Source of the DNA: Metabacillus litoralis
Lineage (GTDB): Bacteria > Bacillota > Bacilli > Bacillales > Bacillaceae
Reading direction: 5' to 3'
Length of the DNA stretch: 64,000 nucleotides
Assembly (NCBI RefSeq): GCF_003667825.1
Contig: NZ_CP033043.1
Location: forward strand, 559,001-623,000
Part shown: positions 28,660 to 41,608 of the stretch, piece after piece
How the letters are laid out: each line of letters starts with the position of its first letter
How positions within the stretch are numbered: the first letter of the stretch is position 1
Notes under the pieces: model-generated
The model's input: only the letters and a program-made list of their open reading frames with translations
Database searches by the model: none
Told to the model about the DNA's origin: nothing
Program-made: the position numbers and the translations under genes

Positions 28660-28689
28660 TTGAATATTTTATTAGTTTCATTATATGAT
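28660..28689 (+). promoter_or_regulatory. Promoter of the first acyl-CoA operon
   Basis: TTGAAT (28660-28665), 18-bp spacer, TATGAT (28684-28689). Its expected start point lies just before the operator copy at 28700. Confidence 0.6.
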
Positions 28690-28699
28690 AGATATAGAA

Positions 28700-28717
28700 A
28701 CATACCGACCGGTTAGT
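28700..28717 (+). promoter_or_regulatory. TetR-type operator, copy 1
   Basis: ACATACCGACCGGTTAGT, with the dyad core ACCG-AC-CGGT. It is 17/18 identical to a site at 33165-33182. It lies just downstream of the promoter and 26 bp before the first gene, where a repressor would block transcription. The cluster's own TetR protein (32549-33112) is the obvious ligand. Confidence 0.75.
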
Positions 28718-28743
28718 TGGTGTGGGAGAAGGAGTGAGAACGA

Positions 28744-29952
28744 TTGAATTTTTCTTATTCAGAGAAGGTAATATCACTTCAAGAGAAACTACATACTTTT
28801 ATGGAAGAATATGTTTATCCTAATGAACAATTGTATGAACAACAGTTAGGTGAACAACAATCACGATGGACAACAATACCTCCTATTATGGAAGAGCTCA
28901 AGGACAAAGCAAAGGCACAAGGTTTGTGGAATTTATTTCTACCAGATAGTGAGCATGGGGCAGGTCTGTCGAATATTGAATATGCTCCGTTATGTGAAAT
29001 TATGGGAAGGTCACTTATTGCTCCGGAGGTTTTCAACTGTAATGCACCTGACACTGGCAATATGGAAGTGCTAGTTCGGTATGGAACAGAAGAGCAAAAG
29101 CAACAGTGGCTTATGCCATTATTAGATGGAAAGATTCGTTCTTGCTTTTCAATGACTGAGCCAGAAGTGGCTTCAGCTGATGCGACAAATATTTGTGCAA
29201 CGATTGAAAAAGACGGAGATGAGTATGTGATCAATGGCCGTAAGTGGTGGTCCTCAGGTGCGGGAGATCCAAGATGTAAAATAGCCATTGTTATGGGGAA
29301 AAATGATCCTGAAGCTCCAAAGCATGAACAGCAATCTATGATCTTAGTACCACTAGATACTCCAGGTGTAAAAATTGAACGTGTTCTACCTGTTTTTGGA
29401 TACGATCATGCACCACATGGTCATGCAGAAATTTCTTTTCAGTCAGTTCGTGTTCCAGCAGCAAATATGATTCTAGGAGAAGGAAAAGGCTTTGCTATTG
29501 CACAGGGAAGATTAGGTCCAGGGAGAATACATCACTGTATGCGTCTAATTGGAGCAGCAGAAAGAGCGCTTGAACTTTTATGTAAGCGTGTACAAAGTAG
29601 AGAAGCATTTGGAAGAAGCCTTTCCCAACAAGGAGTTATTAGAGAGTGGATTGCTGACTCTAGAATTGAAATTGAACAAGCAAGGTTACTAACCCTCAAA
29701 GCAGCATATATGATGGATACAGTTGGGAATAAACAAGCTAAAGCAGAAATTGCCATGATTAAGGTTGTGGCCCCTTCTATGGCACTAAAGGTGTTAGATC
29801 GTGCCATTCAAGCGTTTGGAGGAGCTGGTGTGAGTGAAGATTTTCCATTAGCAGCTCAATGGGCAAATGCAAGAACACTAAGAATAGCAGATGGTCCAGA
29901 TGAAGTTCATCGCGCCCAAATAGGTAGGCTGGAATTAAAAAAATATCAGTAG
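28744..29952 (+). CDS. ACAD10/11-type acyl-CoA dehydrogenase
   Basis: A 402-residue flavoprotein of the acyl-CoA dehydrogenase fold. CFSMTEPEVASADATN, RKWWSSGAGDPRCKIAIVMG, QGRLGPGRIHHCMR, AIQAFGGAGVSEDFPLA and RIADGPDEVHRAQIGRLEL match the dehydrogenase domain of human ACAD11 and bacterial LvaC-like enzymes much better than classical short/medium-chain enzymes. That group acts on 4-phospho-acyl-CoAs, removing phosphate from 4-hydroxy acids. A matching kinase is encoded separately at 35330. The start is a TTG at 28744, after GAAGGAG at a somewhat long spacing. First gene of an operon with an SDR and a CoA ligase, behind an operator. The exact substrate is inferred. Confidence 0.88.
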   Translation: MNFSYSEKVISLQEKLHTFMEEYVYPNEQLYEQQLGEQQSRWTTIPPIMEELKDKAKAQGLWNLFLPDSEHGAGLSNIEYAPLCEIMGRSLIAPEVFNCNAPDTGNMEVLVRYGTEEQKQQWLMPLLDGKIRSCFSMTEPEVASADATNICATIEKDGDEYVINGRKWWSSGAGDPRCKIAIVMGKNDPEAPKHEQQSMILVPLDTPGVKIERVLPVFGYDHAPHGHAEISFQSVRVPAANMILGEGKGFAIAQGRLGPGRIHHCMRLIGAAERALELLCKRVQSREAFGRSLSQQGVIREWIADSRIEIEQARLLTLKAAYMMDTVGNKQAKAEIAMIKVVAPSMALKVLDRAIQAFGGAGVSEDFPLAAQWANARTLRIADGPDEVHRAQIGRLELKKYQ

Positions 29953-29972
29953 ACAGTAAGGAGGGAATGACT

Positions 29973-39695: not shown

Positions 39696-39746
39696 AGGTA
39701 AACCAATTAAAAAATAGTTACTAACTTATGAAGAGGAGTCGATCAA

Positions 39747-40514
39747 ATGAGTGATTTATTGATAGAAAAAGAAGGGGCAGTGTTAACCCTTTGTCTTAAT
39801 AGACCAGAAAATCTGAATGCATTTAGTGCAGAAATGATTAGAAAATTAACAAAAACATTTCAAGAGGCTCAACTTGATGAGGAAGTACGAGTGATTGTTT
39901 TAAAGGGATCAGGACGTTCGTTTTCTGCCGGTGGAGATGTAAAAACAATGGGAACAACAACTGGTACACAGGTTTATGAACATATTGGTCAATTAAATGA
40001 ATGCATTAAAGCAATGACAGAACTTGAAAAGCCAATTATTGCAGCTGTACACGGTTTTGCAGCAGGAGCTGCTTTTAATTTGGCGTTAGCTTGTGACATG
40101 ATTTATGCAACAGATGATAGTAAATTTGTGATGAGTTTTTCACAAGTAGGATTAATTTCAGATGGTGGTGGATTACACTTTCTTCCAAAGATAATTGGGC
40201 CTTATCGGGCAAAAGAGCTCTTCTTTTCAGCAAAACCAATAACAGCTCAGAAAGCTTACGAATACGGAATTGTGAACGAGCTTATCCCGTTAGATGAATT
40301 ATCAAACCGAGTAGCTACAATTGCTAATGAACTTTCACATGGGGCAGTAAGAGCATACGGACTCATGAAGAAAATTATTAATTCTCCAGGTTCATTAGAA
40401 AATGTGTTAGAAATAGAAAGAATTACTCAAACATATATGATCCAAACGGAAGATCATAAAGAAGGTGTTAAAGCGTTTAAAGAAAAACGGAAACCACAAT
40501 TCAAAGGGAAATAG
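39747..40514 (+). CDS. Crotonase 2, PaaG-like isomerase candidate
   Basis: A 255-residue crotonase-fold protein. The oxyanion-hole motif is present (SAGGDVKTM, HGFAAGAAFNLALACDM), but the first catalytic Glu (GGGxE) is replaced by Asn in GAAFNLA, and the second site is LISDGGGLHFLP with an Asp. That single-acid arrangement is typical of PaaG-type 2,3-/3,4-enoyl-CoA isomerases rather than hydratases. It may shift double bonds formed after removal of a 4-substituent, or handle unsaturated acids. GAGGAGTCG precedes the ATG; the next gene starts 12 bp after the stop. Confidence 0.85.
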   Translation: MSDLLIEKEGAVLTLCLNRPENLNAFSAEMIRKLTKTFQEAQLDEEVRVIVLKGSGRSFSAGGDVKTMGTTTGTQVYEHIGQLNECIKAMTELEKPIIAAVHGFAAGAAFNLALACDMIYATDDSKFVMSFSQVGLISDGGGLHFLPKIIGPYRAKELFFSAKPITAQKAYEYGIVNELIPLDELSNRVATIANELSHGAVRAYGLMKKIINSPGSLENVLEIERITQTYMIQTEDHKEGVKAFKEKRKPQFKGK

Positions 40515-40526
40515 GAGGATGTTAAG

Positions 40527-41510
40527 ATGAAGGCTATTCAATTTGAACAATATGGCGGCCCTGAGGTATTGAAATATATAGATTTAGATGATCCAAAACC
40601 AAGAGATTTTGAAGTTGTTATAAAAATTGAAGCAATAGGTGTAAATTATGCAGACACAGCAAGAAGAGAGGGACAGTATGTAGTAGATACACCTCTACCC
40701 TATGTACCAGGCTCAGAAGTAGCAGGTACAGTAATCGAGGTGGGCAAGGATGTTAAAGGGGTTTCGGTTGGTAGCCGAGTTGTGACATTACTAAGCTCGC
40801 GAAAAGCTACGGGATATGCTGAATACACAGTTGCCGATGGTAGAGCACTTATTCCAGTTCCAGACAATGTAGAGTTTAGTACAGCTGTAGCCATACCGTT
40901 ACAAGGGTTGAGTGCTTTTCATATATTAAAAACAATGGGAAGACTTGAGAAAGGAGAAACGGTTTTAATTCATGCAGCAGCAGGTGGAGTTGGAACATTA
41001 GCTGTTCAACTTGCTAAATTGTTTGGAGCAGGGAAGGTTATTGCTACGGCAAGTACGGATGAAAAACTAGCCTTAGCAAAAGATCTTGGAGCTGATGTTC
41101 TAATAAATTATACAAAAGAAGGATGGGAAAAAGAGGTATTAAAAGAAACAAATGGAATTGGGGCGGATGTTGCTTTAGAGATGGCCGGTGGAGATGTTTT
41201 TCGAAAAACATTGGATTGTTTAGCACCTTTTGGTCGATTAGTGATTTATGGAGTTGCCAGTGGAGAACAAGCTAGACTATATCCTTCTTCCTTAATGGCA
41301 GAAAATAAATCGGTCATTGGCTTCTTTTTACCAGGAATCATGAAGAAACAAGAATTGTATAGTAGTAGCTTAAAAGAACTTTTAACATATGTTAACGATG
41401 GAACACTCATACTTAAAATAGGTGGAGTTTTCCCCTTAGAAAAAGCAGCAGATGTACATCGTCTACTTCAAAGCAGGAAAACTCAAGGGAAGTTGGTATT
41501 AGTTCCATAA
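40527..41510 (+). CDS. Quinone oxidoreductase-like zinc-free MDR reductase
   Basis: A 327-residue medium-chain dehydrogenase/reductase: GVNYADTARREGQY, PYVPGSEVAGTVIEVGKDV, and the NADPH site ILIHAAAGGVGTLAVQLAK-like segment near 148-165. No structural or catalytic zinc Cys ligands are seen, so it belongs to the quinone oxidoreductase/enoyl reductase branch. Within this cluster it might reduce a 2-enoyl-CoA or a reactive enone. AGGAGG lies before the ATG. It is the last gene of the second acyl operon; a terminator follows. Confidence 0.88.
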   Translation: MKAIQFEQYGGPEVLKYIDLDDPKPRDFEVVIKIEAIGVNYADTARREGQYVVDTPLPYVPGSEVAGTVIEVGKDVKGVSVGSRVVTLLSSRKATGYAEYTVADGRALIPVPDNVEFSTAVAIPLQGLSAFHILKTMGRLEKGETVLIHAAAGGVGTLAVQLAKLFGAGKVIATASTDEKLALAKDLGADVLINYTKEGWEKEVLKETNGIGADVALEMAGGDVFRKTLDCLAPFGRLVIYGVASGEQARLYPSSLMAENKSVIGFFLPGIMKKQELYSSSLKELLTYVNDGTLILKIGGVFPLEKAADVHRLLQSRKTQGKLVLVP

Positions 41511-41581
41511 TCTAAAGGAGATTTTTGGAATATTCAAATTTTCAGCTACAGGCATTAACAATAAATTTAAAAACGATCTAC

Positions 41582-41608
41582 AAAAAAGTCGGAAATTCCG
41601 GCTTTTTT
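41582..41608 (+). terminator. Terminator of the second acyl-CoA operon
   Basis: AAAAAAGTCGG (41582-41592) pairs with CCGGCTTTTTT (41598-41608), one G-T pair. Confidence 0.85.

Follow-up and report, generated by a model that had tools for sequence, protein, structure and literature searches.

A two-operon gene block in Metabacillus litoralis appears to encode a route by which 4-hydroxy (perhaps 4-oxo) acids would be brought into β-oxidation under TetR control, and a ComB-fold protein encoded within it may serve as the phosphatase counterpart of the pathway's kinase. We give this reading a probability of roughly 55%. The block lies in a 64,000-nucleotide window of the 5.23 Mb genome (GCF_003667825.1, NZ_CP033043.1, forward strand 559,001–623,000), and coordinates below are positions in that window. 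The 4-hydroxyacyl-CoA pathway itself appears well supported by homology, because the locus holds ACAD11/LvaC-type dehydrogenase residues, kinase catalytic residues and a shared operator; homology and residues likewise favor the split ACAD10/11-type pathway for 4-hydroxy acids that a first-pass annotation of the same DNA had put forward. From homology, residues, co-occurrence and operators we infer every reaction and substrate as well as the phosphatase role. The elements that carry the argument are as follows.

28744–29952, forward strand: ACAD11/LvaC-type acyl-CoA dehydrogenase (ACAD), proposed to eliminate phosphate from 4-phosphoacyl-CoA (ACAD11, 485 bits; R256, H264, R267 and D383 kept)
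35321–36394, forward strand: LvaA/ACAD10/11-like kinase, proposed 4-hydroxyacyl-CoA kinase (APH PF01636, 148.9 bits; catalytic residues present)
36444–37175, forward strand: PF04029 (ComB-fold) phosphatase-family protein, proposed 4-phosphoacyl(-CoA) phosphatase (209.6 bits; Leu30)
28702–28717, forward strand: operator-like site ATACCGACCGGTTAGT ahead of operon 1 (exact match)
33167–33182, forward strand: second operator-like site ATACCGACTGGTTAGT ahead of operon 2 (exact match)

In the proposed route, the CoA ligase would activate the acid, a short-chain dehydrogenase/reductase (SDR) would reduce the 4-oxo group if present, the 35321 kinase would phosphorylate the 4-hydroxyl, and the 28744 flavoprotein would eliminate the phosphate to yield a 2-enoyl-CoA. 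The hydratase, dehydrogenase and FadE would carry on from there, with thiolase supplied from elsewhere in the genome, where seven strong thiolase matches are encoded. The 36444 enzyme would hydrolyze 4-phosphoacyl-CoA, or free 4-phospho acid after a thioesterase, to the 4-hydroxy form, its substrates being phospho intermediates left uncleared by the dehydrogenase, owing either to the wrong stereochemistry or to an excess of flux. Most likely, the kinase and dehydrogenase work as LvaA/LvaC and ACAD10/11 do, and the ComB-like enzyme clears phospho intermediates that pile up or resist elimination. A route via free 4-phospho acids is possible because a thioesterase-like gene is a neighbor, and free 4-phospho acid is reported from mouse cells fed 4-hydroxyhexanoate (PMC11342911).

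Pfam places the 28744 protein among the acyl-CoA dehydrogenases. Its best PDB matches are 4hr3, a putative ACAD (497 bits), and ACAD11; the next kind, an ordinary short-chain ACAD, reaches 147.6 bits, in line with its earlier assignment as an ACAD11-type enzyme. In a modeled complex of ACAD11, R626, H634 and R637 hold the 4-phosphate and changing them stops the reaction, while D753 is catalytic (excerpt of PMC12440821); these correspond to R256, H264, R267 and D383 of the 28744 protein, the ACAD11 chain numbering used being the mouse numbers minus one. All four residues are identical in 93 of 93 related proteins above 300 bits (88 distinct). The best-matching ACAD also keeps the phosphate-site residues in each of the 23 plasmid loci that have one, in a survey described below, so subclasses cannot be told apart by these residues; in plasmid locus L222, the ACAD next to the kinase lacks them. 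By match and residues, the 28744 protein is proposed to be a member of the ACAD10/11–LvaC phospho-eliminating dehydrogenases.

The kinase had been described as an APH-type enzyme, which its Pfam match and catalytic residues bear out. It keeps the catalytic D217 and N222 together with R174, the equivalent of the CoA-contacting Arg176, a set found in all 107 kinase relatives above 200 bits. Its ACAD11 match is 158 bits, the APH(3') model reaches 27.9 against a cut-off of 205 bits, and its best PDB match, 9o56, is named an aminoglycoside phosphotransferase. The number of the published CoA-contacting Arg86 of ACAD11 falls on a non-Arg residue in the chain numbering used. The open reading frame (ORF) stands as first annotated, but its start does not: position 35330 is an internal ATG of a GTG-started ORF that opens at 35321. 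Two genomes, G057 (L061) and G033 (L064), carry a second, divergent set besides the main one, with the kinase 44–45% and the ACAD 68–70% identical.

An operator common to both operons had also been proposed, and an exact copy of ATACCGACYGGTTAGT precedes each of them. These are two exact matches in a window search that allowed up to three mismatches (0.37 expected; 6 of 100 shuffles reach 2), and no third exact copy occurs in the whole genome. With up to two mismatches, the genome holds four sites, against two for a reversed control pattern. The exact sequence also occurs in 31 of 217 fetched loci, some of them copies of the window's own locus. Between the end of the TetR gene and the second operator lies a perfect 13-base inverted repeat (33117–33147), which probably acts as a terminator or as an additional regulatory element.

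The PF04029 (2-phosphosulpholactate phosphatase) gene sits directly 3′ of the kinase gene, and its association with the kinase extends across relatives. In a sample of 60 related genomes, its own included (kinase E < 1e-90; close ComB-like gene E < 1e-40), a close ComB-like gene is present in 27 of the 32 kinase genomes and in none of the 28 kinase-free ones (p 2.4e-12, relatedness ignored). Its match starts 7–52 bp after the kinase match in 24 of the 27, is on another contig in two and has moved in one. A further 80 loci, the best 80 of 449 found with an alignment of 18 linked proteins, show context rather than frequency, because they were found with linked-branch patterns and are the best of a larger number; eight coincide with loci obtained earlier. 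They come from many genera, including Metabacillus, Priestia, Peribacillus, Cytobacillus, Planococcus, Virgibacillus, Halobacillus, Aneurinibacillus and a Brevibacillus metagenome-assembled genome. The kinase lies directly upstream (<150 bp, same strand) in 65 of the 80 and within the locus in 74, and kinase or dehydrogenase is present in 77; one of the remaining three (L196) is cut by a contig end beside a partial kinase, and two (L179, L187) have neither gene. Nine loci place the ComB-like gene 73–115 bp before the dehydrogenase, with the kinase 2.5–5.5 kb further on, and the Brevibacillus locus (L146) reads kinase, ComB-like, dehydrogenase, SDR. The ComB-like gene thus stays with either partner enzyme through rearrangements and most likely serves the same intermediate as both.

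Two further approaches to this association were less informative. Distance correlations over 80 loci (kinase–ComB 0.51, kinase–dehydrogenase 0.53, ComB–dehydrogenase 0.39) were set aside as evidence of co-inheritance, as they do not discriminate. A search for ComB fusions returned five protein clusters (P0121–P0125), all of ComB with an alpha/beta hydrolase, and no kinase–ComB fusion among them. In Cytobacillus oceanisediminis, one such fusion of 575 amino acids directly follows the kinase (L188:8992–10719, forward strand), and in L162 the alpha/beta hydrolase is a separate gene next after the ComB-like gene. This hydrolase could be a lactonase or esterase that feeds 4-hydroxy acids. Oleate hydratase was considered as a source of 4-hydroxyacyl-CoA and rejected, with no match in the M. 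litoralis genome and a single full-length match in 60 genomes (G052).

The 36444 protein has both the PF04029 sequence and the ComB fold; its structure matches held nothing telling beyond three ComB structures. It carries Leu30 at the place of the Arg in the D-x-x-R motif, an Arg present in all three solved ComB structures and in 30 of 31 alignable controls. All 107 pathway-linked proteins have a hydrophobic residue at position 30, and none of the 31 controls does (30 Arg, 1 Ser). The linked set comprises proteins over 140 bits and 200 amino acids from 116 loci. A first alignment took ComB ORFs of at least 200 amino acids from 28 of 37 linked and 7 of 10 comparison loci, plus two others; further controls were L111 and L107 (Arg) and L112 (Ser), and a wider set added 19 proteins with Arg and L247, whose alignment stops short of position 30. 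The conserved polar and acidic PF04029 residues are kept in 106–107 of the 107 linked proteins; N104 is Asp in one wider control (L262). Pro84 was tried as a second branch marker (all 107 linked proteins have Pro there, and the 9 first comparison proteins all have Asn) and dropped, with Pro present in 10 of 20 wider controls. Residues 156 and 157 align differently in two alignments, and no claim is based on them. A quick tree of 98 + 9 sequences recovers the linked branch as one clade (support 0.85), which the canonical ComB proteins do not form.

ComA (PF02679) makes the textbook ComB substrate. It had no match in the M. litoralis genome in a search that was positive for B. subtilis and M. 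jannaschii, and a ComA match lies near the PF04029 gene in 10 of 20 controls. The window protein accordingly differs from ComB (PF04029; 1vr0) in Leu for Arg30, in a genome without a ComA match and in linkage to fatty-acid genes. The name 2-phosphosulfolactate phosphatase is probably wrong for this branch, and the idea of an altered specificity rests on one residue, position 30. A further PF04029 protein with Arg30 occurs in L114 (6962–7723) and L115 (6948–7664) beside a YIEGIA gene (PF14045, run against Pfam for L114), with a ComA-like match about 2–3.5 kb from the PF04029 gene.

A phosphatase-type gene also follows the kinase in other phyla. The kinase matched 250 plasmid records, of which 25 loci were opened, mostly one or two per genus, with three from Deinococcus and one from Bacillota; plasmid records without annotation were searched for phosphatases in this slot with five query proteins. 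A histidine phosphatase follows the kinase in 11 of the 25, all outside Bacillota, directly in L219, L220, L221, L223, L225, L227, L229, L230, L231 and L240 and with one gene between in L218; the taxa are Deinococcus, Pseudoalteromonas, Azospirillum, Ideonella, a Rhodobacteraceae, Acinetobacter and Streptomyces. Six of these phosphatases were run against Pfam and all are PF00300; the others rest on record names or similarity. By a split made post hoc, 14 loci have an ACAD that shares at least 54% identity with the window's; a histidine phosphatase follows the kinase in 11 of these and in none of the 11 others. A p-value of 5e-4 from an earlier 15/10 split was withdrawn because both classes keep the phosphate-site residues. 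A HAD phosphatase lies in the operon of Tsukamurella (L236) and a HAD hydrolase beside the ACAD of Haloferax (L237). No phosphatase was recognized directly after the kinase in the remaining opened loci, including L224, L228 and L232, which have an ACAD. The PF04029/ComB search in plasmids returned four records. Divergent kinase–ACAD pairs in L226, L234, L235, L237–L239 and L241 (Cupriavidus, haloarchaea, Rhodococcus and others; ACAD 34–40% identical) keep the phosphate-site residues, have no histidine phosphatase after the kinase and perhaps serve other substrates.

ComB, histidine phosphatase and HAD are all found with the kinase, so three phosphatase-type folds turn up beside it. A tentative generalization, to which we give slightly less than even odds, is that the 4-hydroxyacyl-CoA kinase is generally paired with a phosphatase that would proofread or meter phosphorylated acyl-CoAs, and that unrelated folds came to fill this slot independently. 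The slot would be taken by ComB in Bacillota, by a histidine phosphatase in Proteobacteria, Deinococcus and Streptomyces, and by HAD in animals and perhaps also in certain actinomycetes and haloarchaea. On this view, the branch of ComB-like proteins would be a new enzyme activity under the 2-phosphosulfolactate phosphatase name.

Comparison with known systems places the locus among them. Like LvaA/LvaC of Pseudomonas putida, the window has a separate kinase and phosphate-eliminating ACAD, clustered with SDR and CoA ligase genes (excerpt of PMC6692424); it differs in its TetR gene with shared operator, its extra β-oxidation genes and its ComB-fold gene, which occupies after the kinase the place of LvaB in the lvaABCDE series. 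Mammalian ACAD10/ACAD11 share its phosphate-site residues and match both enzymes, but the window has two polypeptides instead of one, and its kinase ORF lacks a HAD domain while a separate ComB-fold gene is present. The lva cluster of P. citronellolis LA18T is similar in having a phosphatase-family gene beside the LvaA homologue, with no lvaB in the region analyzed, according to the same excerpt; its phosphatase is one of the histidine phosphatases, a family with no relationship to the ComB fold, and it is suggested there that it may act on 4-phosphovaleryl-CoA.

Several points weigh against the phosphatase role and the pathway as proposed. The substrate of ComB is a small free phospho acid rather than a CoA ester. 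The control L112, which has no kinase nearby, carries Ser at position 30 in a well-aligned stretch; it is a divergent PF04029-like protein (L112:5019–5690, reverse strand). Five of the 32 kinase genomes have no close ComB-like gene (G001, G012, G015, G055; a fragment in G038), so the gene is dispensable. Eight of the 28 kinase-free genomes do have weaker PF04029 matches (E 1e-33 to 1e-5), so what is linked to the kinase is the ComB-like branch and not PF04029 as a family. Histidine phosphatase does not follow the kinase in 14 of 25 plasmid loci. Two SDRs exceed NCBIfam cut-offs under sugar-dehydrogenase names. According to PMC11342911, the ACAD10 HAD domain has negligible phosphatase activity and restrains the kinase instead, and the ACAD10 kinase and dehydrogenase keep some S-isomer activity, which leaves the existence of a dead-end isomer uncertain. 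The title of PMC8449060 calls a related kinase fully reversible, and reversibility would make a phosphatase less necessary.

The restraint exerted by the HAD domain leads to an alternative that we consider unlikely, in which the ComB-like protein is no working phosphatase but serves the kinase as a partner or brake. LvaB offers a second precedent: it reportedly binds LvaA and is required for growth on levulinate (excerpt of PMC6692424). The ComB-like gene comes after the kinase in 24 of the 27 genomes and in 65 of the 80 loci, a position that would suit a partner. However, the conserved polar and acidic residues are almost invariably kept, unlike the incomplete DxD motif of ACAD10, and nine loci have the gene beside the dehydrogenase, not the kinase. 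It is improbable that the kinase acts on another alcohol, for instance a tertiary one on the side chain of a steroid or isoprenoid, and that the island degrades this compound. A little less probable still is that the ComB-like enzyme performs the main step, with dephosphorylation contributing to product formation as suggested for the P. citronellolis histidine phosphatase (excerpt of PMC6692424). Tight linkage would fit such a role, but G001, G012 and G015 keep kinase and dehydrogenase without the ComB-like gene, and ACAD10/11 are described as making enoyl-CoA from 4-hydroxyacyl-CoA via the phospho intermediate with no phosphatase added (excerpt of PMC12440821). An accessory, corrective role fits the ComB-like enzyme better than the main step, because it is absent from some kinase genomes. 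That the protein, in keeping with its family name and fold, is in truth a 2-phosphosulfolactate phosphatase and only a bystander here merits very little credence given the lack of a ComA match, a residue 30 different in kind from all alignable controls and a kinase association far from chance.

Operon 1 comprises the ACAD, SDR and CoA ligase genes and is followed by the TetR gene; operon 2 holds nine genes, from 33203 through 40527. The remaining genes of the block are these.

29967–30746, forward strand: SDR oxidoreductase (NCBIfam subfamily named gluconate 5-dehydrogenase, 406 bits against a cut-off of 279)
30793–32406, forward strand: acyl-CoA ligase, AMP-binding (one long-chain-fatty-acid–CoA ligase subfamily, 497 bits against 476)
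32543–33112, forward strand: TetR-family regulator (TetR_N, TetR_C_24)
33203–34084, forward strand: 3-hydroxyacyl-CoA dehydrogenase (profile match)
34084–34863, forward strand: enoyl-CoA hydratase family protein (profile match)
34879–35283, forward strand: thioesterase-like protein (4HBT_2)
37166–38920, forward strand: FadE acyl-CoA dehydrogenase (NF058590, 776 bits against 600)
38925–39695, forward strand: SDR oxidoreductase, ORF opening at 38871 (NCBIfam subfamily named glucose 1-dehydrogenase, 232.8 bits against 215)
39747–40514, forward strand: second enoyl-CoA hydratase/isomerase family protein (profile match)
40527–41510, forward strand: zinc-type alcohol dehydrogenase/quinone oxidoreductase-like protein (ADH_N, ADH_zinc_N)

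Both SDRs and the ligase pass the cut-offs of sugar-dehydrogenase or long-chain-ligase subfamilies, so these names do not fix the substrate. The 29967 SDR gene adjoins the dehydrogenase gene in many loci, and a 4-oxo/4-hydroxyacyl-CoA or 3-hydroxyacyl-CoA step is proposed for its product. The ORFs, coordinates and motifs quoted in the first-pass annotation are all present in the sequence, and profile searches recovered its CoA ligase, 3-hydroxyacyl-CoA dehydrogenase, two SDRs, two crotonase-family proteins and FadE; it had omitted the thioesterase-like (34879), PF04029 (36444) and zinc-type alcohol dehydrogenase-like (40527) genes.

The block is flanked by a penicillin-binding protein gene (26202–28286) and a PAS histidine kinase gene (41809), named pbpH and kinA in the first-pass annotation. 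It had been read as an insertion at this site or a loss elsewhere, and the second possibility is favored. Sixteen stretches beside a pbpH-like gene were compared, from genomes without the block there (G027 has it elsewhere). In nine, kinA lies within about 0.6–2.4 kb with no block gene between; four, all of the same genus (L199, L200, L205, L207), hold between pbpH and kinA a lone copy of the block's CoA ligase (75–80% identical) that looks like a remnant; and three have no kinA in the stretch, one of which (L209) ends with its contig. The block has the same neighbors on both sides in a different genus (L049), and in a member of a different family (L043) it adjoins kinA. Given the lone ligases and these shared neighbors, loss with ligase remnants explains the comparative loci better than insertion here. 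Between pbpH and the operator lies a small lysine-rich ORF (28414–28590, forward strand; 58 codons, TTG start, good ribosome-binding site). Elsewhere in the window, the BsrC small RNA family matches at 13691–13772 (forward strand; 52.1 bits against a gathering score of 38).

The kinase/dehydrogenase pathway is already known: the route for 4-hydroxy acids was reportedly assigned to Pseudomonas in 2017 and to animal enzymes in 2024–2025. A ComB-fold member of the pathway, or unrelated phosphatases in one slot, was not found in the literature searched, apart from the P. citronellolis remark. The locus would represent a bacterial version of the animal pathway that removes a fatty-acid hydroxyl by first adding phosphate, and it suggests that a 4-hydroxy-acid route is common in Bacillales, often together with a phosphatase-family gene. 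It also gives a testable function to this PF04029 branch, which becomes a candidate for an activity once suspected, but not found, in the ACAD10 HAD domain, the clearing of phosphorylated acyl-CoAs.

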